From Dongia sedimenti (GTDB lineage: Bacteria > Pseudomonadota > Alphaproteobacteria > Dongiales > Dongiaceae), in the NCBI GenBank assembly GCA_030715195.1, contig JAUYVI010000001.1, forward strand, positions 124,001-188,000: DNA of 64,000 nucleotides, written 5' to 3'. Of the stretch, positions 13,261 through 64,000 are shown one piece after another. The notes under the pieces were generated by a model that was not told where the DNA came from, did no database searches, and saw only the letters and a program-made list of their open reading frames with translations. The position numbers and the translations under genes were made by a program. The first letter of the stretch is position 1. Each line of letters opens with the position of its first letter.

Positions 13261-13430
13261 GCGCGCGCCGCAGACCCGCTGCTTAAAAGATCCAGTGCAA
13301 TCGGCCCACGCTGGCCTGCTCTGGAAAGATTCCGAATTCAGAAATTTCGCAAATGTGGCAGACCGCGGTATGGCCTCGGCGCAGGAAATCCGCTATAATC
13401 CTCGCGTATAGGCTGCACGTAATACGCAGC

Positions 13431-13519
13431 CTCTCCGCCGTGCCGGGGCCTTGATGTCCCGATAACGCGGCGCCCCTTCAGTCTCTCGCCGTGCCGGGTA
13501 TTTGTTCCCGATAACGCGG
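13431..13519 (+). repeat. Two-copy imperfect direct repeat, about 50-base period
   Basis: Two units of about 38-40 bases, 13431-13470 and 13482-13519. Both contain GCCGTGCCGGG followed by TCCCGATAACGCGG, separated by a variable part of about 10 bases. The core GTTCCCGATAA recurs at 26331-26341 beside another inverted repeat. Function unknown; possible binding sites or remnant of a dispersed repeat. Confidence 0.6.
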
Positions 13520-13593
13520 CCATTCCGTCAACGACTTGCAGCGACCGATGCCGCGCGCATCGTGCGTTGCCGAATCTTGCATGCGTCGAACCC

Positions 13594-13615
13594 AGACCGG
13601 ACACAGACCGGACAC
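13594..13615 (+). repeat. 11-base tandem duplication ahead of the upstream DUF2280 start
   Basis: AGACCGGACAC occurs twice head to tail (13594-13604, 13605-13615), then AGGATG and the ATG at 13635. A similar 11-base duplication (ACCTTTACCGG / ACCTTTACAGG, 13839-13860) precedes the second in-frame ATG at 13872. Confidence 0.7.
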
Positions 13616-13634
13616 AGACAAGGATGCAGCAGCG

Positions 13635-14642
13635 ATGGCGACCCTGGACGACATACAGGCGCGATTGAGCGCGGAGATAACCCGCATGGTGGCGGCGCGC
13701 ATGGCGTCGCCCCGGGCCGGACCCCGACCGAATGCGGAATCGGCGGCGGCTCTCGCAGCCGAGATCGAAGCGCGGCTGATGCAACCCGCGTCGCGCGCCG
13801 ACCCAGATGAAGCGCCGTCAACCTCGACCGCGTGCCCGACCTTTACCGGACCTTTACAGGATGAAGAAGCGATGCCCCACCTCACCGATGAGATCAAGAC
13901 GTTCATCGTCAAAGGCTTAGCCTGCTACGACACCCCCTCCCAAGTGGCCGAGGCCGTCAAGGCAATGTTCGGCATCGAGGTCAGCCGGCAGCAGGTCTAC
14001 GTCTACGACCCGGGCTGTTCGCAACCGTCGGCGCAACGCTGGCGGGATCTCCATGCGGCGACACGCGCGGCTTTGCTGCGCGAGCTTGGCGAGATCGGCA
14101 TCGCCCACCGGGCGGTCCGCCTCCGCAGGTTGGATCGCCTGGCCAGCCGCTCCGAACGCAACAACGTAACGACGGCGCTGAAATGCCTGGAGATGGCGGC
14201 GAAGGAGTGCGGCGGCATGTATGAAAACCGCAAGCCCATCGTCCTGCAGCCCAGCCTGTCGCGGAACGCGCTGCCGGAACCCGCGGTGCAACCCGTTGCG
14301 GCACCGCCGCAGCCCGCGGCGGCACAGGCGGCAGAGCCGCAGCCTCTGGCACCGCTTCCCGCGGCAGCGCCGTCCGTGGCGCAGCAACCGTCAATGCCGG
14401 AGCGCGCCGCGCCCCAGGTCGCCGTGCAACAGGTCGCTACGCCCCAGGTCGCCGTGCCACAGCCGCGGGCCACCGCGCTGTCTGCGCCGCTTCCTCCGGC
14501 CGTGCCGGCGCAACCGCCACAGCCTCCGGCGTTGCCGGAAGCTCGGCCGCTCAGCCGGGTGGAGCGCCACCTTGCCTATGTGCGCGACCGTCATGCGCGC
14601 GATCGGGCGGTCGCGGCCGAGGCGCGCTTGAACAAGGGCTGA
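13635..14642 (+). CDS. DUF2280 protein (phage small-terminase-like) with proline-rich tail
   Basis: A 335-residue protein if it starts at ATG 13635; the conserved DUF2280 part starts at the in-frame ATG 13872 (256 residues). From there PHLTDEIKTFIVKGLACYD and SQVAEAVKAMFGIEVSRQQV, then IGIAHRAVRLRRLDR and AAKECGGMYENR, match the DUF2280 family found in tailed phages, where it sits in the small-terminase position and has a DNA-binding look. After it comes about 110 residues rich in Pro, Ala and Gln with a repeated APQVAV unit, then a basic helix at the C terminus. No other phage genes are nearby, so it is an orphan: a prophage relic or a domesticated gene. The tail and the N-terminal 79 residues are unlike the usual short phage version. 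Confidence 0.7.
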   Translation: MATLDDIQARLSAEITRMVAARMASPRAGPRPNAESAAALAAEIEARLMQPASRADPDEAPSTSTACPTFTGPLQDEEAMPHLTDEIKTFIVKGLACYDTPSQVAEAVKAMFGIEVSRQQVYVYDPGCSQPSAQRWRDLHAATRAALLRELGEIGIAHRAVRLRRLDRLASRSERNNVTTALKCLEMAAKECGGMYENRKPIVLQPSLSRNALPEPAVQPVAAPPQPAAAQAAEPQPLAPLPAAAPSVAQQPSMPERAAPQVAVQQVATPQVAVPQPRATALSAPLPPAVPAQPPQPPALPEARPLSRVERHLAYVRDRHARDRAVAAEARLNKG

Positions 14643-14879
14643 TTGCCGCCGCGCCGCCGGCGACTTAAACCGTCAGGCCCGGCAATGACGTTCGCTTGGA
14701 AGATCCCGCTCCGGCAAGGCAGCAGCACGCGAATCCCGCGGATCTGGCACATCCCGAGGTCGTTCGGGCGGACGATCGGCAGGTCCTGCGATCCACCGGA
14801 AGGCGGATGGCGCGTGCGGCGCGGCCGCTTATTCTTGGCGCAACGGGTCCGAGACCCGAACGAGACGGGAGCGCACGTC

Positions 14880-15782
14880 ATGTCACTCAATCATCTTCCG
14901 AACACCGCCACGCCGGAGGAGGTCGCCGCCGCCATCAACCGCGACGGCTACGTCATCGTGGACGAGCTGGCGCCGGCCGGACTGATGGACCGCATCCAGT
15001 CCGAGATGTCGCCCTACGTCCAGGATTCGATGTACGGCATCGACAACATGCTCGGCTTCAAGACCAAGCGCACCGGTGCTCTGATCGCCCGCTCGCCGGC
15101 GGCGCGGGAGCTGATCATGAACCCGACCGCGCTGGGCGCCGCCGGGACCGTGCTGGAGAAGGCCTCGACCTTCCAGCTGCACCTCACCCAGATCATCAGC
15201 GTCTTCCCGGGCGAGCCGGCGCAGAAGCTGCACCAGGACGAGGTTGCCTGGGATTTCTTCCCATTCCCGCTGGACTACAACATCCAGTGCAACCTGCTCT
15301 GGGCGCTGACCGACTACACCGAGGAGATGGGCGCCACCCGCGTCGTGCCCGGCAGTCACCTCTCCGATCGCAAGAAGTACACCCAGGAGGATACGCTGCC
15401 GGCGGTGATGAAGCGCGGATCGGCGCTGTTCTACACCGGCAAGATCTTCCACGGGGCCGGCGCCAACCGCTCGGACCGGGTGCGGCAGGCGATCAACATC
15501 ACCTATGCCGTCGGGTGGGTGCGCCAGGAGGAGAATCAGTTTCTTTCGACGCCGATCGAGATCGCCCGCACCCTGCCGGACGACCTGCTGAAGGTCATGG
15601 GCTACCAGCTCGGCTGCTTCTCCCTCGGCTATGTGCGCGATGGAGAGGACCCCATGGTCGCGATCCGCGAGCCGGAGAAGCGCGTCCCCTACAACTGCGG
15701 CATCCTGCAGGAGAACGCCAAGAACCGGCGCGCCCTCCAGGGCTTCCTGAGCGACGTCAAGATCGCCGAGCCGGCGGAGTAG
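14880..15782 (+). CDS. Phytanoyl-CoA dioxygenase family protein (2OG/Fe(II) oxygenase), copy 1
   Basis: A 300-residue non-haem iron, 2-oxoglutarate-dependent oxygenase. The iron ligands appear as H118-x-D120 in LHQDEVAWD and H191 in FHGAGANRS, with arginines in VRQAINI suited to bind 2-oxoglutarate. I start at ATG 14880 (GGGAG upstream); the frame is open to 14643 but that part is not protein-like. Family members hydroxylate fatty acyl, ectoine, phosphonate or small amine substrates, so the substrate is open. A close paralogue follows after 13 bases. Confidence 0.88.
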   Translation: MSLNHLPNTATPEEVAAAINRDGYVIVDELAPAGLMDRIQSEMSPYVQDSMYGIDNMLGFKTKRTGALIARSPAARELIMNPTALGAAGTVLEKASTFQLHLTQIISVFPGEPAQKLHQDEVAWDFFPFPLDYNIQCNLLWALTDYTEEMGATRVVPGSHLSDRKKYTQEDTLPAVMKRGSALFYTGKIFHGAGANRSDRVRQAINITYAVGWVRQEENQFLSTPIEIARTLPDDLLKVMGYQLGCFSLGYVRDGEDPMVAIREPEKRVPYNCGILQENAKNRRALQGFLSDVKIAEPAE

Positions 15783-15795
15783 GGAGGAAACGCGC

Positions 15796-16707
15796 ATGAC
15801 GGGAGCCAAGCAGCAGCCGGTCGCCAAGCATCTGCCCTCGACCGCGACCGCCGACGAAGTGGTCGCGCAGTTGCGAGCCGAGGGCTATGCGATCGTGGAC
15901 GATCTGGTGCCGACCGCCCTGATGGACCGCATCACCGCGGAGATGGATCCCTATATCCAGCGCAGCCTCCACGGCGACGACAATTTCGTCGGCAAGCTCA
16001 CCAAGCGCACGGGCATGATGATCGCCCGTTCGCCGGCGGCGCGTGAGCTGATCATGAATCCGCTGGCGATCGGCACGGCGGGCGAGTTCCTGGCGCATGC
16101 CAGCACCTTTCAGCTGCACCTCACGCAGGTGATCAGCGTCTTCCCCGGGTCGAAGGCGCAGCCGCTCCACCGCGACCAGGTCGCCTGGGATTTCTTCCCC
16201 TTCCCGAAGGACTACGAGGTCCAGTGCAACCTGCTCTGGGCGATGAGCGACTATACGGCGGAGATGGGTGCGACACGCGTGGTCCCGGGCAGCCAGTTCG
16301 AGCCGGACCGCGAATACACGCTCGAAGAGTCGATCCCGGCCGAGATGCGGCGCGGCTCGGCGCTGTTCTACACCGGCAAGGTCTATCACGGGGCCGGCGA
16401 GAACAAGTCCGACAAGATCCGCCAGGCGATCAACATCACCTATGCGGTGGGATGGGTGCGTCAGGAGGAGAACCAGTTCCTGGCAACGCCGCTGGAGATC
16501 GCCCGCACCCTGCCGGAGGATCTGCTTAAGGTCATGGGCTACCAGATGGGTTGCTTCGCCATGGGCTATGTCGGCGACTTCGAGGACCCGATGAACGTGA
16601 TCAAGGAACCCGAGGTGCGCCGGGTGTTCAACGTCGAGCTGATGCAGAAGCGCTCGACCGATGCAAGGGACGCCTCGATGCTGATGCGCGCCGCGGCCGG
16701 CGAATGA
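15796..16707 (+). CDS. Phytanoyl-CoA dioxygenase family protein, copy 2
   Basis: A 303-residue paralogue of the preceding gene, with long identical blocks (for example RSPAARELIMNP, AWDFFPFP, GATRVVPGS, QAINITYAVGWVRQEENQF). Iron ligands H125-x-D127 (LHRDQVAWD) and H198 (YHGAGENKS) are kept. AGGGAGGAAA precedes ATG 15796. The pair may act in sequence on one substrate, act as a heteromer, or have slightly different specificities. Confidence 0.88.
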   Translation: MTGAKQQPVAKHLPSTATADEVVAQLRAEGYAIVDDLVPTALMDRITAEMDPYIQRSLHGDDNFVGKLTKRTGMMIARSPAARELIMNPLAIGTAGEFLAHASTFQLHLTQVISVFPGSKAQPLHRDQVAWDFFPFPKDYEVQCNLLWAMSDYTAEMGATRVVPGSQFEPDREYTLEESIPAEMRRGSALFYTGKVYHGAGENKSDKIRQAINITYAVGWVRQEENQFLATPLEIARTLPEDLLKVMGYQMGCFAMGYVGDFEDPMNVIKEPEVRRVFNVELMQKRSTDARDASMLMRAAAGE

Positions 16708-17225: not shown

Positions 17226-17240
17226 TGGCACGGGACTTGC
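17226..17240 (+). promoter_or_regulatory. Sigma-54 (-24/-12) promoter ahead of the first LuxR-type gene
   Basis: TGGCACGGGACTTGC matches the sigma-54 consensus TGGCAC-N5-TTGC, with GG and GC ten bases apart. It lies in the non-coding gap after the RidA gene and about 97 bases before the start at 17337, with a GGAGGA further on. No sigma-54 activator gene is adjacent; the only one in the window is at 59745-61652. Confidence 0.75.
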
Positions 17241-17336: not shown

Positions 17337-18038
17337 ATGCAGTTGGCAGACGACACCACCTCGACAGCGATGATCCGCGAGGCGCTGCAGTTCAGCCGCA
17401 ACTCGCTGGAGGCTTCCTCATCCGTCTTCTTCTGGATCGAGGACCGCAAGCGCATCTCCGGCATCGAGCTGAGCGGGATGCCGCAGGAATTGATGACCCG
17501 CTATCTCGAGGGGATGAACGTCTACGATCCCCTGAACATCTTCGAATTGGTCAATACCGACAAGCGGATCGCCGTCCTGGCGCAGGAACGCTGCCGCCGT
17601 TCCAGCGCCGAAAACCAGATCTACGGCGAGTTTCTCGGGTCGTACGGGTTGGTCGACGAAGTCGACTTCCTGTTCTGGCACGACGGTGCGCCGTTCGCCT
17701 TTCTGGGGATCCTCAAGCGCCGCAACGATCCGCCGTTCTCGGCCGGCATGATCGATTGGGAGGCCATGCGGAGCTATCTCGAGTTCAATTTGAAGATGCA
17801 TTCCCGCATGCGCCGGGTCCGCTGGATCTCCACCCTGCAGCATCGCTACGGCCTCACCCAGCGGGAGATCGAGGTTGTCGAGCTGCTTAACAATGGTGCA
17901 TCGAATCTCACCATTGCGCAGATTCTAGGCATCGGCGTTGCCACGGTGAAGACCTACATCATCAAGATCCTGAACAAGCTCGGCGTCGAAAGCCGGGCGG
18001 CCATCGTCTCCTTCACGATGCGCCTGCAGATGCTGTAG
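17337..18038 (+). CDS. LuxR-type transcriptional regulator without a clear autoinducer domain
   Basis: A 233-residue regulator. The last 60 residues form the LuxR helix-turn-helix: YGLTQREIEVVELL, ASNLTIAQILGIGVATVKTY, then KILNKLGVESRAA. The N-terminal 165 residues look like a small sensory (GAF-like) domain; the pattern of tryptophan, tyrosine and aspartate seen in acyl-homoserine-lactone binders is not obvious. AGGAG precedes ATG 17337. It sits behind a sigma-54 promoter and ahead of a second LuxR gene. Confidence 0.82.
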   Translation: MQLADDTTSTAMIREALQFSRNSLEASSSVFFWIEDRKRISGIELSGMPQELMTRYLEGMNVYDPLNIFELVNTDKRIAVLAQERCRRSSAENQIYGEFLGSYGLVDEVDFLFWHDGAPFAFLGILKRRNDPPFSAGMIDWEAMRSYLEFNLKMHSRMRRVRWISTLQHRYGLTQREIEVVELLNNGASNLTIAQILGIGVATVKTYIIKILNKLGVESRAAIVSFTMRLQML

Positions 18039-53563: not shown

Positions 53564-55303
53564 TCAATCGCCAGGCATGTCGGACAGCGCGTTTGTCCGC
53601 AAGCGCACCACGACCTGGGACAGCACCACCGAGGTGAGTGCGATGGCGCCGAGGATGGTGAAGACCGCATTGACGGACGGCGTGAACCCGAAGCGCATCT
53701 GATTGAACACCCAGATCGGCAGCGTCTGCGAGGGGCCGGATAGAAACAACGTGACCATCACGTCATCGGCAGAAAGCGTCAACCCGAGCAGCGCCCCGCT
53801 GATGACCGCGCCTCGTATCAACGGAAAGATCACGTGGACGAAACTGCGGAACCGTCCCGCCCCGAGGTCGCGCGATGCCTCCATGAGCGATGGATCGAGG
53901 CGCCGCAGGCGGGTGAGCACGAGCAGCATCGTCACCGGCATGATGAAGCTCGCCTGGCCGACGACGGTCCGCGGCAATCCGGAGGGGACGCCGACAAGCT
54001 CTGTGCCCAGCACCATGACGATGCCAAGCACCACCGCCGGCATGGCCAACGGCAAGGCCAGCAGAAGCTCGATGAGCTGCGATCCGGGCCCGCGGCGATA
54101 GTGCAGGGTCAGGGCGAAGCCGGTGCCGATCAGCGTCGAGGCCAGGACCACGCAGACCGCGACGATGACCGAGCGCTGCGCCGCGGCAATCAGGCCGCCA
54201 TTGCCGGCCAGGGCCTCGTACCATCGCCAGGTAAAGCCCTGTAGCGGAAAGGACTGCAGCGTCGAATCGTTGAGCGAGAACAACACCATCAGCAGCAGCG
54301 GCGCGTAGAGGAAGGCGATCGCCAGGGCATAGAACAGCGCGCCGGACAATGTCGTCAGGGCGGACGGCGTCGCGTGCGTCCGCGCCTTGGCCGCGCCCCC
54401 CTCGTCCCCGGAGAAGACGCCGCGGGCGGGGCAAAGCCACAGCACCACCGCAAGCACGACGCCGACACAGAGAATGAGGGCGATCGAGAGCGCGGCGCCA
54501 TAGGGCCAGTTGTTGGCCATGCCGAATTGCGACGAGATCAGCACGCCGAGCGTGGTTCCGTTCATTCCGCCCACCATCGACGGCGTCACGTAGTCTCCCA
54601 CCGTGACCAGAAAAGCGAGGCTGAAACCGATCGCCAGGCTGCGTCGGGTCAGCGGCCAGATCACGAAACAGAATGTCTGGAACTTCGAGGCGCCCGAATC
54701 TTCCGAGGCCTCGATCAGGGCCGCCGGAATCTTCTCAAAGGCGTTCAAGCAGGAGATGAACACGAACGGGATGGAGACGTAGGCGAAGGTCAGAACGACG
54801 GAAGCCGCGGTGTAGAGAAACGCGGCCGAGGGTTGTTCGAGCAGGCCGCTGGTCACCAGGAACGAATTGAGGACGCCGTTCTGGCCCAGGATCAAGCGCC
54901 AGGAAAAGACCCGCATCAGCAGACTGATCCACAGCGGTACGAGCACGAGAATGGTCAGAAGCGCCTTGTTGCGATGGGCGATGCGCCCGACAAAATAAGC
55001 CATCGGATAGGCGGCCAGCGCACCGCAAAGGCTTGCGATGAGGCTGAACTCCAGCGTTGCCTCCAGCAGGCGCCAGAAGCCGGCGGAACCCAGCAGCCGA
55101 GCATAGTTTCCGAAGGAAAGAACGAAATTGAGGCGACCGTTGGATGCGGTGAGAAAGCTGATCGCGATCAGCAGCAGGTTGGGCAGCACGACGATCAGCA
55201 GCAGCCAGGCATAGACCGGAATCCGGACCGGATCGATGTGAAGGGCCAGGCGTTTCCGGGGCTTCACCTCGGCCGCCGATGCCGCTTCCGCCAGACTAGC
55301 CAT
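53564..55303 (-). CDS. Fused polyamine-type ABC transporter permease (PotB-PotC in one chain)
   Basis: A 579-residue inner-membrane protein in which two permeases are joined. Residues about 28-292 are PotB-like, with the EAA loop EASEDSGASKFQTFCFVIWPL; a charged, unstructured linker follows (about 297-315); residues about 320-572 are PotC-like, with EASRDLGAGRFRSFVHVIFPL. Each half has about six membrane segments. Spermidine/putrescine-type transporters normally use two separate permeases; fused ones are known for iron transporters (FbpB type) but are unusual here. It overlaps the ATPase gene by eight bases. Confidence 0.88.
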   Translation of the reverse strand: MASLAEAASAAEVKPRKRLALHIDPVRIPVYAWLLLIVVLPNLLLIAISFLTASNGRLNFVLSFGNYARLLGSAGFWRLLEATLEFSLIASLCGALAAYPMAYFVGRIAHRNKALLTILVLVPLWISLLMRVFSWRLILGQNGVLNSFLVTSGLLEQPSAAFLYTAASVVLTFAYVSIPFVFISCLNAFEKIPAALIEASEDSGASKFQTFCFVIWPLTRRSLAIGFSLAFLVTVGDYVTPSMVGGMNGTTLGVLISSQFGMANNWPYGAALSIALILCVGVVLAVVLWLCPARGVFSGDEGGAAKARTHATPSALTTLSGALFYALAIAFLYAPLLLMVLFSLNDSTLQSFPLQGFTWRWYEALAGNGGLIAAAQRSVIVAVCVVLASTLIGTGFALTLHYRRGPGSQLIELLLALPLAMPAVVLGIVMVLGTELVGVPSGLPRTVVGQASFIMPVTMLLVLTRLRRLDPSLMEASRDLGAGRFRSFVHVIFPLIRGAVISGALLGLTLSADDVMVTLFLSGPSQTLPIWVFNQMRFGFTPSVNAVFTILGAIALTSVVLSQVVVRLRTNALSDMPGD

Positions 55304-56378
55304 GGAACAACCTCGCCTCGGTGAGGTCGAAGGCGACTTTCACGGTCTGGCCGTTCACGAAGCCAGGCGCGTGGCTGGCGGGAACGCTGCTCATGATGCG
55401 CAACGCGCCGCAGCGGACATCGACCTCGAAGCTGGTGCCGAGGAACAGCACGTTCTCCACGACGCCGGCGAGCTCGCCCGCGCGCCGCTCGCACCCATCG
55501 TCGGCCTCGAGCTTCACGTGGCCGTACCGGATCGCGACGCGACCCTGCCCGGCGACGTTGGAGCGCATTTCCGGAAGCTTGGTGCCCTGTATCGTTGCGA
55601 CATAGCTTTCCCGGTCCGGCTCGAAGTCCACCGGCAGCATGTTCGAGTTTCCGACGAATTCGGCCACGAACTCCGATTGCGGCTTGTAATAGAGGTCCAG
55701 CGGCGTGCCGAGCTGCGCAATCCGCCCGTCGCGCATGACCAGGACCCGGTCGGACATCGACAAGGCCTCGCTCTGGTCGTGCGTGACATAGACGAAGGCG
55801 ATCCGCAGTTCCTTCTGCAAGGAGACGAGCGTGTGCTGCATCTGCTGGCGCAGCCGGAGATCGAGCGCGCCCAGCGGCTCGTCGAGCAGCAGCAACGGCG
55901 GACGGGAGACGATCGCCCGGGCGAGCGCAACCCGTTGCCGCTGTCCGCCGGAAAGTTGATGGGGGAGTCGTGTCGCGTAGCCTTCCATCGCCACATGCTC
56001 GAGCGCCTCGACCGACCTGCGCGCCCGCTCCGGCCGGGACACGCCCTGCATCCGCAGCGGATACTGGACGTTCTCCGCCACGGTCAGATGCGGGAACAGG
56101 GCATAGCTCTGGAAGACGGTGCGGACGTCTCGCTTGTTCGGCACCAGCTGCGTGACGTCGACACCCGCCATCAGCACGCGACCGCGGTCCGGCCGCTCAA
56201 AGCCCGCGATCGTTCGCAGGATCGTGGTCTTGCCGGAGCCGCTCGGGCCGAGGATCGAGAAGAATTCCCCGGCCGCCACCTCGAACGAAACCGAATCGAG
56301 GGCGGGCTTGCGGCTGCCCGGATAGGTCTTGCTGACATGGTCGAGCCTGAGGACGGGACCATCGGATACCTGCCGCAT
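55296..56378 (-). CDS. Polyamine-type ABC transporter ATP-binding protein (PotA-like)
   Basis: A 360-residue ATPase. Walker A GPSGSGKTT, signature [13 protein letters not shown], Walker B LLLLDEPLGALD, and a C-terminal TOBE domain (VAIRYGHVKLEADDG). I use ATG 56378, the first codon of the conserved protein, with AAGGTGG upstream; 56429 is a longer alternative that would overlap the receptor gene. Second gene of the receptor-ATPase-permease operon. Confidence 0.9.
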   Translation of the reverse strand: MRQVSDGPVLRLDHVSKTYPGSRKPALDSVSFEVAAGEFFSILGPSGSGKTTILRTIAGFERPDRGRVLMAGVDVTQLVPNKRDVRTVFQSYALFPHLTVAENVQYPLRMQGVSRPERARRSVEALEHVAMEGYATRLPHQLSGGQRQRVALARAIVSRPPLLLLDEPLGALDLRLRQQMQHTLVSLQKELRIAFVYVTHDQSEALSMSDRVLVMRDGRIAQLGTPLDLYYKPQSEFVAEFVGNSNMLPVDFEPDRESYVATIQGTKLPEMRSNVAGQGRVAIRYGHVKLEADDGCERRAGELAGVVENVLFLGTSFEVDVRCGALRIMSSVPASHAPGFVNGQTVKVAFDLTEARLFHG

Positions 56379-56398
56379 CGTGCTGCCACCTTCGCCGA

Positions 56399-57505
56399 TC
56401 AGAGGGTGCCGGACTTGAAGTCGTTCCACATTTGCAGGCGACGATCCAGGTTCTCCGGCTTCTGGAAGATGACCAGCTTGTTCCAGAATGCGGCGTCGGC
56501 CGAATCGATGATGTTGGTCACCTTGAGAATGTCATCGCCGAGCCCAGCCTTGCGCGCGGCTTCCGCGCTGAGCACGCCGTTGTTGGTCGACTTCTTGATG
56601 AAGCGCGACTGCCAGTCGAGGCCAAGATTGTCATTCAGGAACTTGTAGACGATCGGCCGATCGCCTTGCTTCGAGATCGCGGCGCAGTCGATCCAGGTGG
56701 GCGTTCCTTCCTTCGGCAGCGAATATCTGAAGTTCTTGCCTTTTGCCTGAAGTGCGGTCACCACGGCGACGTTCTGGCAATAGCCGACTACGGCGTCGCC
56801 GGCGGCGTAGATCGAAGTCGCGTCGTCGAAGCCGCGGGCGATGACGCGGATCTGCTGGCGCAGGGCGCGCAGGGCATCGGCACATTTGTTGAACTCGTCC
56901 TCGGTGAGATTGAACGGGTCCTTGGCGCCGATATAGAGGGCGATCATCGGGAAGGTGATCGTGCAGTCGTCGAACATGTTGACCTTGCCCTCGTAGGCCG
57001 TGTCCCACAAGATCGTCCAGCTGTCCGTCTTGGTGACGACATCGGCGTCGAACATGAGCGGCTGGGTCCCCCAGTTGTAGGGGACACCGACAACCTCACC
57101 GCCGACTTCGGTGTACTTCTTCCAGTCGAGGTTCGGGCTGATATTGGCGGCGTTCGGCAGCTGGCCGACGTCGATGGCCTTGATCAGGCCGGCGTCCTTG
57201 AAACGCGACAGCGAGCCGGTTTCGATGTAGAGGACATCCGGTTGCACGGCGCCGGAATTGGGCTGCGAAAACAGCTCGTCTACCGAGCCGATGCGGACGG
57301 CGCGGACTTCGGTGTTGTTGGCACGACCCCATGCTTCGATCCATTCGTCGTCGTGATAGGTTTCCCAGGTCAACAGCAGGATCGACTCCGCGGCCTGTGC
57401 GGGGCGGATGAGGTTCGGAGTGAACAGCGCGGTGGTGATGATGGCGCCGCCCGTCTTCAGCATCGTCCGACGGTTCAGCGACCTCTTCGGATTGGCATTG
57501 GTCAT
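56399..57505 (-). CDS. Polyamine-type ABC transporter substrate-binding protein (PotD-like)
   Basis: A 368-residue periplasmic receptor. ATG 57505 follows GGGAAG; the N terminus has a twin-arginine-like motif (LNRRTMLKTGG) and hydrophobic stretch to about residue 36, suggesting Tat export. The mature part opens ILLLTWETYHDDEWIEAW, as in spermidine/putrescine or opine-type receptors. First gene of the operon, 42 bases from a sigma-54 promoter. The ligand is an amine or amine-like compound by family. Confidence 0.88.
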   Translation of the reverse strand: MTNANPKRSLNRRTMLKTGGAIITTALFTPNLIRPAQAAESILLLTWETYHDDEWIEAWGRANNTEVRAVRIGSVDELFSQPNSGAVQPDVLYIETGSLSRFKDAGLIKAIDVGQLPNAANISPNLDWKKYTEVGGEVVGVPYNWGTQPLMFDADVVTKTDSWTILWDTAYEGKVNMFDDCTITFPMIALYIGAKDPFNLTEDEFNKCADALRALRQQIRVIARGFDDATSIYAAGDAVVGYCQNVAVVTALQAKGKNFRYSLPKEGTPTWIDCAAISKQGDRPIVYKFLNDNLGLDWQSRFIKKSTNNGVLSAEAARKAGLGDDILKVTNIIDSADAAFWNKLVIFQKPENLDRRLQMWNDFKSGTL

Positions 57506-57546
57506 CGAATGCTTCCCTGTTTTATTGTTGTAACTTCGACGATCAC

Positions 57547-57561
57547 GCAATCGCTATGCCA
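57547..57561 (-). promoter_or_regulatory. Sigma-54 promoter of the polyamine-type transporter operon
   Basis: On the minus strand TGGCATAGCGATTGC, with GG and GC ten bases apart. It lies 42 bases ahead of the receptor start. Nearly the same 15-mer stands before the flavin reductase (59642-59656). Confidence 0.8.
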
Positions 57562-57724
57562 GATATATTGCGCCGCAGCATCCCATTCATCAACGGCGGA
57601 TAGCGTGTGGATCGCTGCTCCGGAATCTCAGATTTAACAATATATTAGGGCTCGCGTGCCGCCGCGTGGATCGCGGCACGTCGGGCGATATCGTCGGCGG
57701 GGCGTCGCATTTCTGGTCCGGGCC

Positions 57725-57740
57725 GTCTCTCGTTTGAGAC
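57725..57740. promoter_or_regulatory. Inverted repeat, candidate activator site (UAS) for the transporter operon
   Basis: GTCTCTCGTTTGAGAC: arms GTCTC/GAGAC, about 165 bases upstream of the sigma-54 promoter at 57547. Same layout as 59698-59713. Confidence 0.7.
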
Positions 57741-57786
57741 AATCCTGTGCTGGACCATCGCCGCGGCGGCGGCGACCCGACCGCCA

Positions 57787-59061
57787 TCAGAATCGCTTAG
57801 GCGAGAAGGGCTCCAAGGCGATGCGTGGGCGGCGGCCGGAGACCAGATCCGCGACCAGCAGGCCGGTTTGCGCGCCCCCCGCCATGCCGACATGGCCGTG
57901 GCCGAACGCATAGACGACATCGGCAGTCCGGGAAGCCGGGCCGATGACCGGCAGGGAATCCGGCATGCTGGGACGGAATCCCATCCAGACCGATATGCGA
58001 TCGCCGGCGGCGTCGGTCGCCAATTGCGGAAACAGGCGCGCGCCCAGCGCGAGGAGCCGCTTGGCCCGGTTCCAGTCGGGCTTGGCTTCCAGGCCGGCGA
58101 ACTCAACCGTCCCCGCTAGCCGCAGTCCCATCTCCATCGGCGTTGCGACGAATTTCCCGACGGTATCGAGGACCGGCGCGCGCGGCATCAGGCCGGGCTC
58201 CTTGACGACGACGTGATAGCCGCGCTCGGTGTCAAGCGGGATCGCATCGCCCAGGCCATGGGCGAGCGGCCGCGAGAACGCTCCGGCCGCCACGACCGCG
58301 CGATCGGCGGGGATGGGGCCTTGGTCGGTGCGCACCGCCTTCAGCCGTCCGTCCACCACGTCGAAATCGAGCGCTCTTGCCCGCTGGATCCGGCCGCCGT
58401 CGCGCAGGAATGCTTCCGCGAGCGCGGCGACAAAACGGTTGGGGTTGATGGTATGGCCGTTATTGGGCAGGAACACGCCCAGGCGATAGTCGTGCGACAG
58501 CGCCGGCTCTTGCTGCCGGAGCGCGTCATCCTCCAGAACCGTGTAGCCGATCCCGTTGTCGCTGCGCAGCTTCCAGGCCAGCGCGTCCGCTTCGAACGCG
58601 CGGCGGTCCGGATACACCATCAGGTGGCCGTCCTTCCGGACCAGCGCCCGGGCGCCGGCATTCTCCACGAGGGGGCGATAGACACCGGTGGAGTCACGGA
58701 GCAGATCGCCGAGCGCCTTGGCTTGCGCCGCCACGCGATCCGGCGCCGCGGCTTTCAGGAAACGCCCGAGCCAGGGCGCGAGCTGCGGAAGATATCCCCA
58801 GCGGATGGAAAGCGGCCCGAGGGGATCCAGCAGCCAGCCGGGCACTTTGCGCAGATTGCCCGGCATCGACATCGGCACGACCGATGACGGGTTGAAGCAG
58901 CCGGCATTTCCGAAGGACGCGCCGCCGGCGATCTCGCCCGGCTCGACGATGGTGACCGCAAACCCTTCCCGCAGCAGCCAGCTCGCCGCGCAAACACCGA
59001 TGACGCCGCCGCCGATGACCACTACGTGCAGCGGTGCAGTTCCGTTGGCCCTTGCGCTCAT
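57787..59061 (-). CDS. DadA-like FAD-dependent amine/amino-acid dehydrogenase
   Basis: A 424-residue DAO-family flavoprotein. The FAD motif VVVIGGGVIGVCAASWLL is at about residues 12-29, with GASFGNAGCFNPSSV after it as in D-amino-acid dehydrogenase; the C-terminal GFRPSMPDSLPVIGPAS and GHGHVGMAGGAQTG complete the fold. It should oxidise a D-amino acid, secondary amine or amino acid derivative and pass electrons to a quinone. Start ATG 59061 in an ATGA overlap with the flavin reductase, so the pair is one transcript. Confidence 0.88.
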   Translation of the reverse strand: MSARANGTAPLHVVVIGGGVIGVCAASWLLREGFAVTIVEPGEIAGGASFGNAGCFNPSSVVPMSMPGNLRKVPGWLLDPLGPLSIRWGYLPQLAPWLGRFLKAAAPDRVAAQAKALGDLLRDSTGVYRPLVENAGARALVRKDGHLMVYPDRRAFEADALAWKLRSDNGIGYTVLEDDALRQQEPALSHDYRLGVFLPNNGHTINPNRFVAALAEAFLRDGGRIQRARALDFDVVDGRLKAVRTDQGPIPADRAVVAAGAFSRPLAHGLGDAIPLDTERGYHVVVKEPGLMPRAPVLDTVGKFVATPMEMGLRLAGTVEFAGLEAKPDWNRAKRLLALGARLFPQLATDAAGDRISVWMGFRPSMPDSLPVIGPASRTADVVYAFGHGHVGMAGGAQTGLLVADLVSGRRPRIALEPFSPKRF

Positions 59062-59576
59062 GCGGTGCCGCTGTGCTTGGCGCCGGCCGGCAGGACGGAG
59101 CGCAACCCGTCGAACTTTCCGTCGACATAGAGCAGGGGATGGACGACCGGCCCGCGGATCATGACGCGGACGACCTCGCCGAAGAGCACGGTGTGGCTCT
59201 GCACCTCCACCGCACGATGGATCCGGCAGTCGAAATTGGTCAGCGCATTGATGAGCGCCGGTGCGCCGGTCGCGAGCGCTTCCCAAGGGCAGAACTCGAA
59301 ACGCCGATGCCGGTGCTCGGACGAGCTGAATACCCGGGCGGTCTCGATCTCGGCCTCGCTCAGGACGTTGACGCAGAAACTGCCGGAGCGCAGCAGGATA
59401 TCGTGGCAAGTGACCGACTTGTTGACGCAGACCAGCAGCAACGGCGCCGGGTCGGCGGAGACTGAGGTCACCGAGGTCGCCGAAAAGCCGTGCGGCTGCC
59501 GGCCGTCCATGGTGGTCACCACCGACACACCGGCCGCGAGCCGGCGCATGCCTTGTTTGAACTCGGATAGATCCAT
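59058..59576 (-). CDS. Flavin reductase (HpaC/DIM6-type), reducing partner of a flavin monooxygenase
   Basis: A 172-residue NAD(P)H:flavin oxidoreductase. The family start FKQGMRRLAAGVSVVTT, then GFSATSVTSVSADPAPLLLVCVN-type sequence and the late GEVVRVMIRG are clear. Start at 59576 (GGAAGG upstream) gives the usual length. It supplies reduced FMN or FAD to a two-component monooxygenase; the luciferase-like protein at 61914-63023 is the obvious partner. It lies behind a sigma-54 promoter at 59642-59656. Confidence 0.88.
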   Translation of the reverse strand: MDLSEFKQGMRRLAAGVSVVTTMDGRQPHGFSATSVTSVSADPAPLLLVCVNKSVTCHDILLRSGSFCVNVLSEAEIETARVFSSSEHRHRRFEFCPWEALATGAPALINALTNFDCRIHRAVEVQSHTVLFGEVVRVMIRGPVVHPLLYVDGKFDGLRSVLPAGAKHSGTA

Positions 59577-59641
59577 CGTCTCGTGCCTTCCCCGCCGCGG
59601 TCCGTCGGCCATCGATCGACGGTCGTCGCGGGTGATGCTCC

Positions 59642-59656
59642 GCAAGCGCTATGCCA
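59642..59656 (-). promoter_or_regulatory. Sigma-54 promoter of the flavin reductase-dehydrogenase operon
   Basis: On the minus strand TGGCATAGCGCTTGC, GG and GC ten bases apart, 66 bases ahead of the start at 59576. Fourteen of 15 bases equal the transporter-operon promoter. Confidence 0.8.
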
Positions 59657-59697
59657 TCCGCGGGCAGCGCGTAGACCTGAATGATCGCGGCGGGATC

Positions 59698-59713
59698 GTC
59701 TCAGAATTGAGAC
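59698..59713. promoter_or_regulatory. Perfect 16-base inverted repeat, candidate activator site
   Basis: GTCTCAGAATTGAGAC, arms GTCTCA/TGAGAC. It lies about 42 bases upstream of the -24 element; a further half-site TGAGAC is at 59728-59733. It is also just beyond the stop of the activator gene (59745). Confidence 0.75.
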
Positions 59714-59744
59714 CGCCTTGCCCGGCTTGAGACGGGACAAGGCG

Positions 59745-61652
59745 TCAGCGGATGACTTTGTACGAGCCGAGCGCGTGCTGGCGCATTTTCCGGTACAGCG
59801 TCGCCCGGCCCATGTTGAGCGCTCGTGCAGCCTTGGTCACGTCGCTGGAATGCAGCGCCAGCATCTCCTGGATCATCTGCTTCTCCGCGGCCCGCAGCGG
59901 TTCGCGCGGGTCGCGCAAGCCCGGCGGCGCAAGCTCCTGGGCGTCCTGCCCGGCGGTCGACGGCAGGCACAGGTCCTGAGCTTTGATCAGGTTGCCTTCG
60001 CAAATATGGACGGCGCGCAGCAGCACGAACCGAAGTTCGCGGATGTTGCCCGGCCAGCAATACCGGCGCAATGCGGCCGTAGCGTCGTCGCCGAGCTCGG
60101 CAGGTGACCCGCTGGCGCGCAACAGGCTCTGGGCGATTTCCAGGATATCCGATCGCTCGCGCAGCGGCTGCATCTCGACGACCAGCCCGGCGAGACGGAA
60201 ATACAGGTCCTGCCGGAAGCGGCGCTCGGCAACGCTCTTCAGCAGGTCGTGATTGGTCGCCGCGATGATATTGACGTCGATGTGCTGCGCCTTCCCCGAG
60301 CCGAGCGGGCTGACCTCGCCGCTCTCGAGCACCCGAAGCAGCCGGGTCTGCAGCGCAAGCGGCATGTCGCCGATCTCATCGAGGAACAGTGTCCCGCCAT
60401 CGGCTTCCCGCAGGCGGCCGGTATTGCCGTCCCGCTTCGCACCGGTAAAGGCACCGGCGGAATAGCCGAACAGCTCGCTGTCGATCAGGCTCTCCGGCAC
60501 CGCCGCACAGTTGAAGGCGACGAACGGCTTGTCTCTCCGCGCACCGTCGTTATGCAGCGCCCGCGCCAGCGTGTCCTTGCCCGTCCCGGTCTCACCGAGC
60601 AGCAGCAGCGGCAGGGAACCCGACACGTTGCGCAGCAGGCGCGAGAGCTGTGCCATGCGGGGATCGGAACCGAGGCATTGCTCGATCGTGGGGTGCGTCG
60701 CCAAGCGGGGCGTCCTCCCCGCGGTCCGATTGTCCCGCGCGGGGCCGGCTTTGCGCGTCGGCCGCCGCCAGGCGCGGTCCTCTTCAGGCGGCACCAGGAC
60801 GGCGTTGGCGGCTTCGGTGCCGTCGATCTGCCGAAGCCGCGGCAGTGTGCCGCCCTTGGTCATGCCGTCCAGCGTATCCGGGCTCCGCTCGAAGATGCTC
60901 CACAGCTCGTGCTGACCCAAACCGTCGGCGCCCAGCCGATAGAAAGCGCGCGCTTCCCGGTTCGCGCCGATGATGCGCTGGTCCTCATCCAGGGCCAGCA
61001 GCATGACGTGGCTTTCCCGTTGCACGCGAAGGATGGAATTTCTGCTGAACCGATTCATGAAGAGCCGGTTGCTGAGACGCTCCGCCGTGGTGAGCGCCAG
61101 GCCCGCGACGATGCCGAGGGACTCCATCCCGACCTTCGGATTGGAGGTCGCGATATTCAGCACGCCGGCCATTTCCGCATCCGCGGAGAGGACCGGCACC
61201 GCGACGCAGGACAGCGAGGAATAGGCCTGGAAGTAGTGATCCTCACCCGCCACGATCGTCGGGCGGTGCTCCATGATGCAGGTGCCCACGCCGTTCGTGC
61301 CGGCCACGCCCTCGGCCCAGATCGCACCCGGCCGCTCCATTTCCAGGCCCGCGTCGTTGCCCGGCCCGGTCTGATATCGAAGAATGATTCCGGCCATATT
61401 GGAAAAGCTGACGCAGAAACGCGCCGAGCGGAGCGTGCTCTGGATGAACTTCAGCTCATCGTCGATCGTGACCAGATTTTCGTCGAAACCCTCGCTGTGC
61501 TCGCCGATCTCATGCGCCGTCAGCGATGAAAAATACGGCTTGGCCGCGCGGTCGAAACGGTATCTCTCCGCGCACCGACGCCAGGATTCCTGCAGATCGA
61601 CCAGTCCCCGATCCGGAGCGGAGGTCGCGATTTCACTACGCAGTAAAACCAT
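59745..61652 (-). CDS. Sigma-54-dependent activator, AcoR-like
   Basis: A 635-residue enhancer-binding protein. N-terminal sensory part with a GAF domain (about 75-195) and a PAS-like region (210-290); AAA+ domain with Walker A GETGTGKD at 353-360, the sigma-54 contact loop GAFTGA near 401, Walker [14 protein letters not shown]-terminal Fis-type helix-turn-helix ([22 protein letters not shown]). All key parts are present, so it should be active. It is placed between the flavin reductase (same strand) and the monooxygenase (divergent). It likely binds the GTCTC-N6-GAGAC sites and activates the three operons when a small molecule binds the GAF domain. Confidence 0.93.
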
Positions 61653-61771
61653 GCAAGTTCCGATCGGTCAGAGGAACTGTCCGATAGTAATGCAGCATAG
61701 CGTGATGCCGTCAAGTAAGCGCGGTCCCGGCGCGCGCAATGAGGCGCCGCTCCGCCAGAAATGAGACGCCG

Positions 61772-61787
61772 TTCTCTCGGATGAGAC
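61772..61787. promoter_or_regulatory. Candidate activator site for the monooxygenase operon
   Basis: TTCTCTCGGATGAGAC matches 13 of 16 bases of the site at 57725. A half-site TGAGAC is at 61762-61767. It lies about 75 bases upstream of the sigma-54 promoter at 61862. Confidence 0.6.
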
Positions 61788-61861
61788 AGGCCGGCGGTCC
61801 GCGCCGGCGAAAAGTGCCTTCGACGCGTGGCTTAGCGCACCCGCCGATCGTCTGTCGCCCG

Positions 61862-61876
61862 TGGCACGGGCTTTGC
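61862..61876 (+). promoter_or_regulatory. Sigma-54 promoter of the monooxygenase operon
   Basis: TGGCACGGGCTTTGC, a full match to TGGCAC-N5-TTGC, 37 bases ahead of the GTG start at 61914. Confidence 0.85.
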
Positions 61877-61913
61877 GAAATCCGGGTTCAACGGGTCAAG
61901 AAAGGAAGCCGCG

Positions 61914-63023
61914 GTGAAACTCTCATTCTTCATGATGCCCCTCCACAGCATGAACCGGGACTACCACACGACGCTCATGGAGGACGTTGAGTCGGTGGTC
62001 CTAGCCGACAAGCTCGGCTTCGAAGAGGTCTGGATCGGAGAGCACTACACTTGCACGATCGAGCAGGTATCCTCGCCGCTCTTGTTCCTGGCGCACATCG
62101 CCAGCAAGACCAAGAACATCAAGCTGGGGACCGGGGTTATCCCGCTGCCGCTCTATCACCCGGTCATGCTCTCCTCCCACATCGCGCTGCTCGACCATCT
62201 GACTGAGGGCCGGCTGATCCTTGGGGTCGGGACCGGGGCGCTCGGTTCGGATTTCGAGGCGTTCGGGATTCCGAACGCCAACCGGCCGGAGATGATGATG
62301 GACTCGCTGGACATCATGCTGAAGATCTGGGCCTCCAGCGCGCCCTATGAGATCAAGGGGAAATACTGGAACGTCACGTTAAAGGACAAGGTGTGGCCGG
62401 ATCTCGGCGTCGGCGAGCTGCCCAAGCCCTATCAGCTGCCCCATCCGCCGCTGGCCCTCTCCGTCAGCAGCCCGAACTCCAACTCGATCCGCGTGGCGGC
62501 GCAGCGCAATATGATGCCCATCTCCGCCAACTTTGTTGCATCATGGGTGGTGAAGACCCATTGGGCAACTTACGCCGATGAAATGCAGAAGCTCGGCAAG
62601 GTTCCCGACGGCGGGAATTGGCGGGTGGCGCGCAGCATCTTCGTTGCCGATACCGATGCCGCGGCGGAAGCCTATGTCCAGACGCCTCAGGGGGCCTATG
62701 ACTGGTATTACGACTATATGTTCCAGGTCTATAAGCGCCTGGGCGCGGCGGCATTGCTGGCGCCGACCCCTGACACGCCGGAAAGCACCATCACCCACCA
62801 GATGGTCCGCGACAGCTTCGTCATCTATGGAAGCCCCGAGACCGTTGCGCGTAAGATCCTCGCCTTGCGGGAGGAGGTCGGGCCCTTCGAGCGGCTGCTG
62901 ATGACGGCGCATGACGGCAAGGACAAGGCGATCATGCATAAGTCGATGGAGCTCCTCGCCAAGAAGGTCATGCCGATGGTCAATGCGAAACTCGGAGCCC
63001 GGACCCCGGAAATGGCGCGCTGA
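61914..63023 (+). CDS. Luciferase-like flavin-dependent monooxygenase (LLM class, limonene-monooxygenase-like)
   Basis: A 369-residue TIM-barrel oxygenase. GTG 61914 follows AAAGGAAG. It opens with MKLSFFMMPLH and has ADKLGFEEVWIGEHYT, LGTGVIPLPLYHPVML and GRLILGVGTGALGSD, all typical of the bacterial luciferase family; the overall look is of limonene 1,2-monooxygenase-type members. It needs reduced flavin from a separate reductase, here probably the one at 59058. It leads an operon with an FAD-linked oxidase. Confidence 0.9.
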   Translation: MKLSFFMMPLHSMNRDYHTTLMEDVESVVLADKLGFEEVWIGEHYTCTIEQVSSPLLFLAHIASKTKNIKLGTGVIPLPLYHPVMLSSHIALLDHLTEGRLILGVGTGALGSDFEAFGIPNANRPEMMMDSLDIMLKIWASSAPYEIKGKYWNVTLKDKVWPDLGVGELPKPYQLPHPPLALSVSSPNSNSIRVAAQRNMMPISANFVASWVVKTHWATYADEMQKLGKVPDGGNWRVARSIFVADTDAAAEAYVQTPQGAYDWYYDYMFQVYKRLGAAALLAPTPDTPESTITHQMVRDSFVIYGSPETVARKILALREEVGPFERLLMTAHDGKDKAIMHKSMELLAKKVMPMVNAKLGARTPEMAR

Positions 63024-63047: not shown

Positions 63048-64000
63048 GTGACCGCGCAGTCCGCTGACCTCCTGCAACCCGGCAAACTCTGGTGGAACTG
63101 GTTTGGCGAGCAGAACTTCGTGCCGCGCTACACCACCGCGCCGCGGGACGAGGAGGATGTCCGGCGCATCGTCCTGAAGGCCCAGGAACTGGGACTGCCG
63201 GTGCGTTCCTCCGGCCGGGGGCATTCCAATCCGGCAATCGTGCCGACGCCCGGCATCCATATCGACTTCCGGTCGTTCGGCGCGGTCATCGGCGTCGACA
63301 AGCAGAAGCTGCAGGTCACCGTCCAGCCCGGCATCACGGTCGGCGAGCTCAGCCGCTACCTCCGCACCCAAGGCATGTCGCTCAACAATCAGGGCGACAT
63401 CGACACGCAGTCGGTGTGCGGGGCGATCATGACGGCCACCCATGGCGCCGGCATCACGCTTCCCTGTTTCTCCGCCCAGATGATCGGCGCCCGCATCGTC
63501 ACCGCCGACGGGAGCTTCGTCGATCTTTCCGCGGAAACCGACGGCGAGCTGTTCAAGGCTTTTCGTGCCTCGCTCGGCATGTTCGGCGTCGTGGTCTCGC
63601 TGACGCTCCAGGCCGTCCCGTCCTACAACATCCGCAAGACCTCCTGGAACGCCGATGTCGAGGACTGCATCGGTGGATTGCGCGAGAGATTGGCGAGCAA
63701 CCGCACCTTCTGGTTCTTCTGGCTGCCGCATCGGAAATCCGCAGATCTCTTCGTCCTGCCCAGCGACATTCCGAACAGGGCCAGCCGCGACCACGATATC
63801 TGCCACATGCGCAGCTACAACGCCGTCCCGGTCGCGGATCCGGCGCCGGCACTCGGGCCCGGTGAGCAATTCGACCACAGCTCGGTGATCTTCCCCAACC
63901 TCTACGAGCCGAATTTCCGCGAGATGGAATATGCCGTGCCGATGGATGCGTTCGAGGAGACTTTTGCGGAGGTGCGGCAACTGCTCCTGAGGGAGTATGC
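63048..64000 (+). CDS. FAD-binding oxidase (VAO type, aldonolactone-oxidase-like), partial
   Basis: The frame opens at GTG 63048 (GGAG seven bases before) and runs to the window edge without a stop (317 codons). The FAD-binding domain is clear: TAPRDEEDVRRIVLKA and VRSSGRGHSN near residues 32-68, then GELSRYLRTQGMSLNNQGDI and the GAIMTATHGAG motif at about 125-135 with the usual histidine. The second half resembles the D-arabinono-lactone oxidase domain (FWFFWLPHRKSADLF). It may oxidise the alcohol or lactone product of the monooxygenase 24 bases upstream. The C terminus is outside the window. Confidence 0.85.
   Translation, partial: MTAQSADLLQPGKLWWNWFGEQNFVPRYTTAPRDEEDVRRIVLKAQELGLPVRSSGRGHSNPAIVPTPGIHIDFRSFGAVIGVDKQKLQVTVQPGITVGELSRYLRTQGMSLNNQGDIDTQSVCGAIMTATHGAGITLPCFSAQMIGARIVTADGSFVDLSAETDGELFKAFRASLGMFGVVVSLTLQAVPSYNIRKTSWNADVEDCIGGLRERLASNRTFWFFWLPHRKSADLFVLPSDIPNRASRDHDICHMRSYNAVPVADPAPALGPGEQFDHSSVIFPNLYEPNFREMEYAVPMDAFEETFAEVRQLLLREY

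Follow-up and report, generated by a model that had tools for sequence, protein, structure and literature searches.

A predicted sigma-54 catabolic regulon with an AcoR-type activator in Dongia sedimenti

Described systems and the genes of the locus

In Bacillus, AcoR is the sigma-L (sigma-54) activator of acetoin catabolism, and its binding sites, as quoted in an excerpt of PMC12648084 from the originals (Ali et al. 2001; Peng et al. 2020), carry the hexamer TGAGAC/GTCTCA, with the B. thuringiensis site given as GAGAC-N4-GTCTC; the Phytobacter AcoR site found by the authors of that paper appears there without TGAGAC. EBP regulons of the Clostridiales have been delineated by comparative genomics in a study that lists AcoR, DhaR, AguQ and others (excerpt of PMC6615313). 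The locus that we describe resembles Bacillus AcoR in the GAF + AAA+ + Fis HTH layout of its activator, in that this activator adjoins a catabolic operon that it is expected to control, and in a predicted operator with TGAGAC/GTCTCA, according to the excerpt of PMC12648084. Unlike Bacillus, it comprises several operons rather than one, and the half-sites stand in the opposite order (GTCTC-N6-GAGAC here, GAGAC-N4-GTCTC in the quoted B. thuringiensis site). With the Clostridiales regulons, as they are presented in the excerpt, it shares the plan of one activator with its own UAS motif and one or a few -24/-12 catabolic operons, but the phylum and the gene content are different; the words luciferase and flavin reductase are absent from the main text of PMC6615313.

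We analysed a window of 64,000 nt from Dongia sedimenti (GCA_030715195.1, contig JAUYVI010000001.1, 124,001-188,000 of the forward strand; genome 6.13 Mb). Promoters, operators, gene families, promoter-operator pairing and conservation were all read from the sequence. The genes concerned are as follows, in window coordinates unless another handle is given.

53564-55303, minus strand: ABC permease, a single 579-aa chain with a PotB-like and a PotC-like half (PF00528 twice)
55296-56378, minus strand: ABC transporter ATPase (ATP), PotA-like, 360 aa (PF00005, PF08402)
56399-57505, minus strand: SBP, spermidine/putrescine-type solute-binding protein, 368 aa (PF13416; PDB matches to PotD/PotF-type proteins)
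57787-59061, minus strand: DAO, FAD-dependent amine/D-amino-acid-type oxidoreductase, 424 aa (PF01266)
59058-59576, minus strand: FRED, flavin reductase, 172 aa (PF01613)
59745-61652, minus strand: REG, sigma-54 activator, 635 aa (GAF PF01590, AAA+ PF00158, Fis-type HTH PF02954)
61914-63023, plus strand: LLM, luciferase-like flavin-dependent monooxygenase, 369 aa (PF00296)
63048-64000, continuing to window-equivalent 64313, plus strand: FADox, FAD-linked oxidase of aldonolactone/alditol oxidase type (PF01565, first 317 aa)
L012:4334-5809 (own genome), following FADox: ALDH, aldehyde dehydrogenase

The closest solved structure to LLM is 3,6-diketocamphane 1,6-monooxygenase (E 1e-40); its assignment as NtaA/EmoA/DmoA was rejected on a TIGR03860 score of 29.9 bits against a cut-off of 279.7. 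Degradation of EDTA and nitrilotriacetate uses an LLM monooxygenase, a flavin reductase, an amino-acid-type oxidase and an ABC importer, a similar mix of enzyme types, although LLM here is nearer to diketocamphane monooxygenase than to the NtaA/DmoA model. LLM (PF00296) and FRED (PF01613) are each preceded by a promoter and an operator of the same type, and by family they qualify as a predicted two-component flavin-dependent monooxygenase under shared control. Full-length FADox (L012:3049-4314, own genome) matched L-galactonolactone dehydrogenase chains best (E 1.3e-33), while DAO scored 204 bits against a cut-off of 383 in NCBIfam NF001933 and was rejected as a D-amino acid dehydrogenase.

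By profile scores, the predicted importer is of the same superfamily as the spermidine/putrescine importer and is not an equivalog, with all four Pot scores below cut-off (bits/cut-off: PotA 348/482, PotB 207/348, PotC 188/326, PotD 50/582); the PotB match falls at 30-286 of the permease and the PotC match at 323-569. In SBP, W47, Y50, D179/D180, W271 and D273 are invariant in 15 sequences and align with residues of a spermidine/putrescine-binding chain, which we take to bind the amine there. The putative substrate is probably a small amine-bearing compound that would be imported and oxidised. Of the genes examined around REG, none was recognised as an acetoin dehydrogenase gene, and we rejected REG as AcoR proper, acting on acetoin, since the genes adjoining it belong to other families. 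A regulon with this gene content was not described among the matches listed in the one open-access collection searched, although subscription journals could differ, in agreement with the sequence-only reading, which knew of none; a word search for six terms gave no match in PMC12316311.

Promoters, operators and their pairing

REG has the layout of an AcoR-type activator, with the AAA+ domain matched at E 1.8e-61, the Fis-type HTH above cut-off, and the Pfam search at E 0.001 revealing no receiver domain. The GAFTGA and Walker motifs that had been noted are indeed present in its sequence, and GAFTGA, Walker A/B and the Fis HTH are invariant in an alignment of 15 proteins, which are 39-57% identical to REG. 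The genome has a single rpoN gene, so that the -24/-12 targets expected of a sigma-54 activator lie in an rpoN-bearing genome, and the operator contains TGAGAC, as in AcoR-type systems, if not in the published half-site order. We scored -24/-12 promoters against TGGCAYR-N4-TTGC (exact, 11/11) and obtained the following features.

57547-57561, minus strand: -24/-12 promoter of the ABC transporter operon, TGGCATAGCGATTGC, exact, 56 bp before the SBP start codon
59642-59656, minus strand: -24/-12 promoter of the flavin reductase/DAO operon, TGGCATAGCGCTTGC, exact, 80 bp before the start codon
61862-61876, plus strand: -24/-12 promoter of the LLM/FAD oxidase/ALDH operon, TGGCACGGGCTTTGC, exact, 52 bp before the LLM start codon
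57725-57740, minus strand: predicted operator palindrome, GTCTCAAACGAGAGAC, 10/10, starting 179 bp upstream of the ABC transporter operon promoter
59698-59713, minus strand: predicted operator palindrome, GTCTCAATTCTGAGAC, 10/10, starting 57 bp upstream of the flavin reductase/DAO promoter
61772-61787, plus strand: predicted operator palindrome, TTCTCTCGGATGAGAC, 9/10, starting 90 bp upstream of the LLM operon promoter
61762-61767, plus strand: extra TGAGAC half-site, 20 bp from the TGAGAC at 61782
59728-59733, minus strand: extra GTCTCA half-site, 20 bp farther upstream of the 59698-59713 palindrome

Thus, the three -24/-12 promoters claimed by the sequence-only reading are all exact, and the two said to be 14/15 identical are the minus-strand pair. 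Its three upstream GTCTC-N6-GAGAC-type sites are also there, two exact and the third with 9/10 fixed bases, and the 13/16 match given for the third holds when measured against the 57725-57740 site. The definition of the site needed revision: GTCTC-N6-GAGAC is the commonest form of what is a looser TGAGAC half-site operator, often repeated 20 bp apart, and the operators at 61772 and 59698 are larger than first stated (additional half-sites at 61762 and 59728). Moreover, the operator is less new than had been implied, given TGAGAC/GTCTCA in the Bacillus AcoR sites (excerpt of PMC12648084).

Several other candidates were set aside. A fourth exact -24/-12 site in the window, at 17226 (+), has an upstream palindrome of at best 7/10, and a near-palindrome at 36963 lies inside a LacI-type ORF. 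The exact palindrome at C1:189944 (window-equivalent 65944), with no -24/-12 of at least 9/11 within 300 bp, was ruled out as a fourth member; it sits just before the next gene. A simple scan of 56300-62000 found no sigma-70-type promoter before these operons, its one match there being at chance level, and no exact IHF site (one 8/9 match) lies between operator and promoter.

Palindromes with at most two mismatches number 30 in the window, compared to a shuffle mean of 38, and therefore a palindrome by itself is no evidence; what counts is its pairing with a promoter. The genome holds 16 exact -24/-12 sites (2 for the reversed control pattern), 11 exact palindromes (control, 2) and 160 palindromes at up to one mismatch (control, 84). 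When the full genome was scanned, a palindrome of at least 9/10 was found within 250 bp upstream of only 3 of the 16 exact -24/-12 sites, the three in this regulon; the best upstream palindrome of the remaining 13 is no better than 7/10. Likewise, an 11/11 -24/-12 lies within 300 bp of two exact palindromes out of 11, both in this regulon. Imperfect sites were also searched around the other nine: the nearby sequence gives no better than 9/11 for three of them and nothing of at least 9/11 for six. Calculated by hand from the genome counts, and post hoc, the chance of three exact promoters in 4.3 kb is ~2e-7 and that of a palindrome at three of three promoters ~3e-7.

Related loci

The strongest support for the predicted regulon comes from 19 related loci in Mesorhizobium, Agrobacterium vitis, Ancylobacter, Methylopila and others, soil and plant bacteria in which the same arrangement recurs. 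The operons are reordered and re-oriented across these loci, and a REG homologue lies within each. An exact -24/-12 precedes LLM in 18 of 19 loci, 52-66 bp from the LLM start, as here; it precedes SBP in all 17 relatives with an SBP gene and FRED in 12 of 13. ALDH has one in 5 of 14 loci, those in which it forms its own unit, and DAO has one in 1 of 19, where DAO leads, whereas none precedes ATP (0/18), FADox (0/19) or REG (0/18). Matches below 40% identity were dropped from these counts, and hence the REG of locus L022 (39%) was not counted. One of the 18 ATP matches, at 41% in L019, is probably a paralogue.

The hexamer TGAGAC/GTCTCA is present in 44 of 53 upstream regions of the relatives (200 shuffles: mean 3.7, maximum 10), and a palindrome of at least 9/10 in 35 of 53 (mean 0.29, maximum 3), although some regions are counted twice because divergent promoters share them; merged over every exact promoter in these loci, 26 of 50 have the palindrome. 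The 398 kb of related loci contain 60 exact -24/-12 sites and none of the reversed pattern. GTCTC-N6-GAGAC is the most enriched half-site arrangement (33 occurrences; median over arrangements, 3), and a second half-site ~21 bp away is also seen in L014-L016, L020 and L032. There are exceptions. The exact palindrome is found in only 6 of 19 loci, and in G398 the genome's only exact palindrome is outside the regulon locus. Several SBP promoters have a palindrome of only 6-8/10, and the operator is missing within 200 bp of the FRED promoters in L014-L016, where the best match is 6-7/10. L019 is without any exact -24/-12, and in nine Ancylobacter-type loci tandem palindromes are followed by no good -24/-12 (best 7-9 of 11). 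The class search also gave loci L034-L061; at about 2.5-4.1 kb these do not extend far enough to show the regulator, and they were left out of the evidence.

A wider plasmid family, in Agrobacterium cucumeris, A. larrymoorei and Mesorhizobium loti NZP2037, has LLM at 42-45% and REG at 41-42%, exact -24/-12 sites, some of them preceded by TGAGAC half-sites, and, in every case, genes for an ABC importer. It differs from the Dongia locus in that the search, down to its limit, brought up no FAD oxidase and in that it carries a GMC oxidoreductase with RidA; malate synthase G or riboflavin genes are found in some places. Some loci lack one part or another, and no described function was found for the family.

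Proposed regulation, alternatives and spread

We strongly favor a local sigma-54 catabolic regulon made up of the AcoR-type REG, three -24/-12 promoters and TGAGAC-based predicted operators, in which three adjoining gene groups, all with this uncommon sort of switch and with like binding sites, are very probably under the control of the activator whose gene lies among them. REG would sense a metabolite through its N-terminal, GAF-containing part and bind operators in which TGAGAC half-sites are combined, commonly as the 16-bp GTCTC-N6-GAGAC, another half-site lying ~20 bp off; DNA-bound REG would then loop to sigma-54 polymerase sitting at the three promoters, which its GAFTGA/AAA+ motor would open. 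Switched on would be a polyamine-type ABC importer, the flavin reductase with the FAD-dependent amine/amino-acid-type oxidase, and the LLM monooxygenase with the aldonolactone-type FAD oxidase and aldehyde dehydrogenase, whose products may jointly import and then oxidise the compound. We infer REG as the binder, the need for RpoN, the ligand, the substrate and the order of reactions.

We considered that short degenerate motifs might simply have been picked by eye in a GC-rich window, based on the lack of palindrome enrichment in the window and on the 11 exact palindromes genome-wide compared to 2 for the control. The restriction of the pairing to these three promoters in the genome, together with its conservation across genera far above shuffles of the relatives' upstream regions, makes chance matches so improbable that we regard them as ruled out; the sequence-only reading, too, had held chance unlikely. 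Its sigma-54 regulon is likewise sustained by the activator, the three exact promoters, the operators and rpoN, a combination that follows the operons in 19 loci.

The promoters might instead be sigma-54 dependent while the palindromes are bound by another regulator, such as a repressor, with REG acting elsewhere or nowhere. The operator type is itself predicted, some promoters lack it (FRED of L014-L016), and some tandem operators in Ancylobacter lack a -24/-12. We nevertheless consider this quite improbable, because a REG homologue sits inside each of the 19 loci, the half-site lies upstream of exact -24/-12 sites beside a 41-42% REG on the Mesorhizobium loti and Agrobacterium plasmids, the hexamer is found in published AcoR sites (excerpt of PMC12648084), and the simple scan gave no sigma-70-type promoter before the operons. 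Somewhat less remote, but still unlikely, is a wider regulon, in which genes at other places in the genome also answer to REG by way of imperfect promoters: there are 160 palindromes at up to one mismatch, the search for imperfect -24/-12 sites covered only the surroundings of the 11 exact palindromes, and the Ancylobacter set takes in genes for RidA and GMC oxidoreductase next to the regulon. However, the control gives 84, more than half of these 160, and the other 13 exact -24/-12 sites lack any palindrome better than 7/10.

If the local regulon is real, each operon has its own operator and -24/-12 and could therefore be moved, inverted or excised without loss of control. The location on plasmids in Agrobacterium vitis and Ancylobacter, and the fact that none of the 4 listed genomes of the genus gave an LLM match at E 1e-60, fit a mobile pathway. 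It is an evenly balanced question whether this is an undescribed, horizontally spreading catabolic regulon of Alphaproteobacteria, with an AcoR-type operator and a -24/-12 for each operon, that serves a new pathway for a plant- or soil-derived amine (possibly opine-like) via a Baeyer-Villiger-type LLM monooxygenase. For comparative work, the set is a clean example of a small sigma-54 regulon in which every operon has its predicted activator, operator and promoter, and thus the pathway may be approached through its regulator, whose inducer should be the substrate or an early product. The comparison also suggests that Bacillus AcoR has its TGAGAC half-site in common with distant AcoR-type activators of Alphaproteobacteria, which could help to assign targets to many uncharacterised members of this type.

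Pairing of promoters and palindromes in the Dongia sedimenti genome

Three sigma-54 (-24/-12) promoters, each with an upstream inverted repeat, had been placed around an AcoR-type activator (REG) by the sequence-only reading, and we found all of these elements present as described:

57547-57561, minus strand: promoter of the solute-binding protein (SBP) operon, 56 bp before the SBP start codon; palindrome (57725-57740) 179 bp 5' of the first promoter base
59642-59656, minus strand: promoter of the flavin reductase (FRED) operon, 80 bp before the FRED start codon; palindrome (59698-59713) 57 bp 5' of the first promoter base
61862-61876, plus strand: promoter of the luciferase-like monooxygenase (LLM) operon, 52 bp before the LLM start codon; palindrome (61772-61787) 90 bp 5' of the first promoter base

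Distances to start codons are derived from coordinates. All three promoters are exact TGGCAYR-N4-TTGC sites, two repeats are exact GTCTC-N6-GAGAC palindromes, and the third retains 9/10 fixed bases.

The palindrome by itself is not special; its pairing with a promoter is decisive. Palindromes with up to two mismatches occur at chance level in the window, and the genome holds 160 with at most one mismatch (84 in the control) and 11 exact copies (2 in the reversed control). Exact -24/-12 sites are rare (16 in the 6.13 Mb genome, compared to 2 in the control), and just these three of the 16 have a palindrome of at least 9/10 within 250 bp upstream; for the remaining 13, the best upstream palindrome is 7/10 at most, and 1/13 has a lone half-site (TGAGAC/GTCTCA). 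Both exact palindromes of this locus have an 11/11 promoter close by, and they are the only two of the genome's 11 to do so; three others have only 9/11 promoter matches nearby. Thus, the genome-wide scan proposed by the sequence-only reading, run for exact promoters, returned only its own three promoters as paired. Its observation is confirmed, and its interpretation as a regulon is supported.

The window contains a further exact -24/-12 site at 17226-17240 (+), TGGCACGGGACTTGC. An ORF resembling a LuxR-type regulator (17337-18038) begins about 100 bp downstream of it; we looked for a TGAGAC operator at this promoter and found none.

Genes of the predicted regulon

Leftward lie SBP, an ATPase and a fused permease, all of the spermidine/putrescine superfamily, as well as an amine/D-amino-acid-type oxidoreductase (DAO), FRED and REG. 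Rightward lie LLM, an aldonolactone-type FAD oxidase (FADox) and then, outside the window, a putative aldehyde dehydrogenase (ALDH), with one further gene 3' of it; the ALDH takes its name from the way the A. vitis counterpart, to which it is 77% identical, is annotated. In the permease (53564-55303), PotB-like and PotC-like halves are joined in a single chain. No NCBIfam enzyme or transport model scored above its cut-off, so none assigns a substrate. The nearest solved structure to LLM is 3,6-diketocamphane 1,6-monooxygenase, and SBP keeps aromatic and acidic residues aligned with positions in a spermidine/putrescine-binding chain that have a role in binding amines. Sigma-54 regulons of this kind are already known; the open-access literature searched yielded no publication covering this combination of genes. 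Shortly past the regulon, from about 7.2 kb, Dongia's own locus reads like a putative prophage, with ORFs that look like a LexA/CI-like repressor, a terminase and a portal protein (L012 ~7200-16000, window-equivalent ~67200-76000).

Promoters and predicted operators in related loci

A genome scan with LLM yielded 19 related loci (LLM identity 66-84%) in Mesorhizobium, Agrobacterium vitis, Ancylobacter, Methylopila, Hansschlegelia, Mangrovicella, Acidisoma and three metagenome bins, with a REG homologue in 19/19. There are several gene-order types: three Mesorhizobium loci and A. vitis share the window's order; Methylopila, Hansschlegelia, Mangrovicella and Ancylobacter have REG and the importer on the right-hand side of LLM; and five Ancylobacter-type loci have ALDH ~5 kb to the left, divergent from FRED. 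Despite this variation, an exact -24/-12 site accompanies whichever gene leads a unit, with counts of 18/19 for LLM, 17/17 for SBP and 12/13 for FRED ( in the sole exception, L024, FRED sits behind importer genes). Such sites precede ALDH in 5/14 loci, DAO in 1/19, and the ATPase (0/18), FADox (0/19) and REG (0/18) in none, which argues that REG is probably not under sigma-54 control of its own.

The half-site occurs in 44/53 promoter regions of the related loci and the palindrome (at least 9/10) in 35/53, compared to means of 3.7 and 0.29 in 200 dinucleotide shuffles, although the regions are partly non-independent because divergent promoters share sequence, and the counts are not independent events because the species are related. 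When regions were merged across all exact promoters in the loci, some of them outside this regulon, the figure was 26/50. GTCTC-N6-GAGAC was the commonest half-site arrangement, with a count of 33 where the median arrangement has 3; direct repeats at a 20-bp distance came second (14). Exact palindromes occur in 6/19 loci; the genome's only copy stands before SBP in Mesorhizobium STM 4661, within the locus in Ancylobacter aquaticus (in a tandem pair without -24/-12), and outside the locus in A. mangrovi.

Some results count against this reading. We found no operator within 200 bp of the FRED promoters of three Mesorhizobium loci, and several SBP promoters have a best palindrome of just 6-8/10. 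At L019 we looked for an exact -24/-12 site and found none. Furthermore, nine Ancylobacter-type loci carry palindromes, mostly tandem and 21-22 bp apart, where -24/-12 matches in the next 245 bp downstream are poor (best 7-9/11):

L021 6811/6833; L026 6814/6835; L027 6794/6816; L030 6810/6832: tandem palindromes
L022 8321/8343; L029 8319/8341; L031 8319/8341: tandem palindromes
L025 6842; L023 8342: single listed palindromes

By sequence, the tandem sites are a predicted enhancer pair without a visible promoter; a degenerate promoter may be used, a neighbouring promoter may be served, or the activator may act otherwise there.

AcoR sites and a wider plasmid family

The TGAGAC/GTCTCA hexamer is shared with Bacillus AcoR sites quoted in a 2025 Phytobacter paper (PMC12648084): the B. 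subtilis UAS is CAGTTTGAGAC, and the B. thuringiensis site contains GAGAC-N4-GTCTCA. However, the half-site order in the quoted B. thuringiensis site is unlike the palindrome here, and Phytobacter's own AcoR site lacks the hexamer. Since the hexamer is quoted, and so already known, for AcoR, this analogy supports REG as the candidate binder of the predicted operator, and makes the operator less novel.

Agrobacterium cucumeris, Mesorhizobium loti and Agrobacterium larrymoorei have a more distant version (LLM 42-45%, REG 41-42%) on plasmids, with a GMC oxidoreductase, RidA in 2/3 plasmids, and exact -24/-12 sites on all three, preceded by TGAGAC half-sites in 1/2, 3/3 and 2/4 cases, respectively. 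On plasmid loci L090 and L091, which have LLM homologues, we looked for exact -24/-12 sites and found none. RidA and GMC oxidoreductase genes also adjoin the regulon on an Ancylobacter polymorphus plasmid (L086 8337-10530), where RidA has an exact -24/-12 site and a 9/10 palindrome in front. Genes for malate synthase G, flavin biosynthesis (RibBA, RibB) and riboflavin kinase adjoin distant LLM homologues (L088 3618-7599; L090 10095-10787; L087 5214-5714), perhaps for flavin supply and glyoxylate handling.
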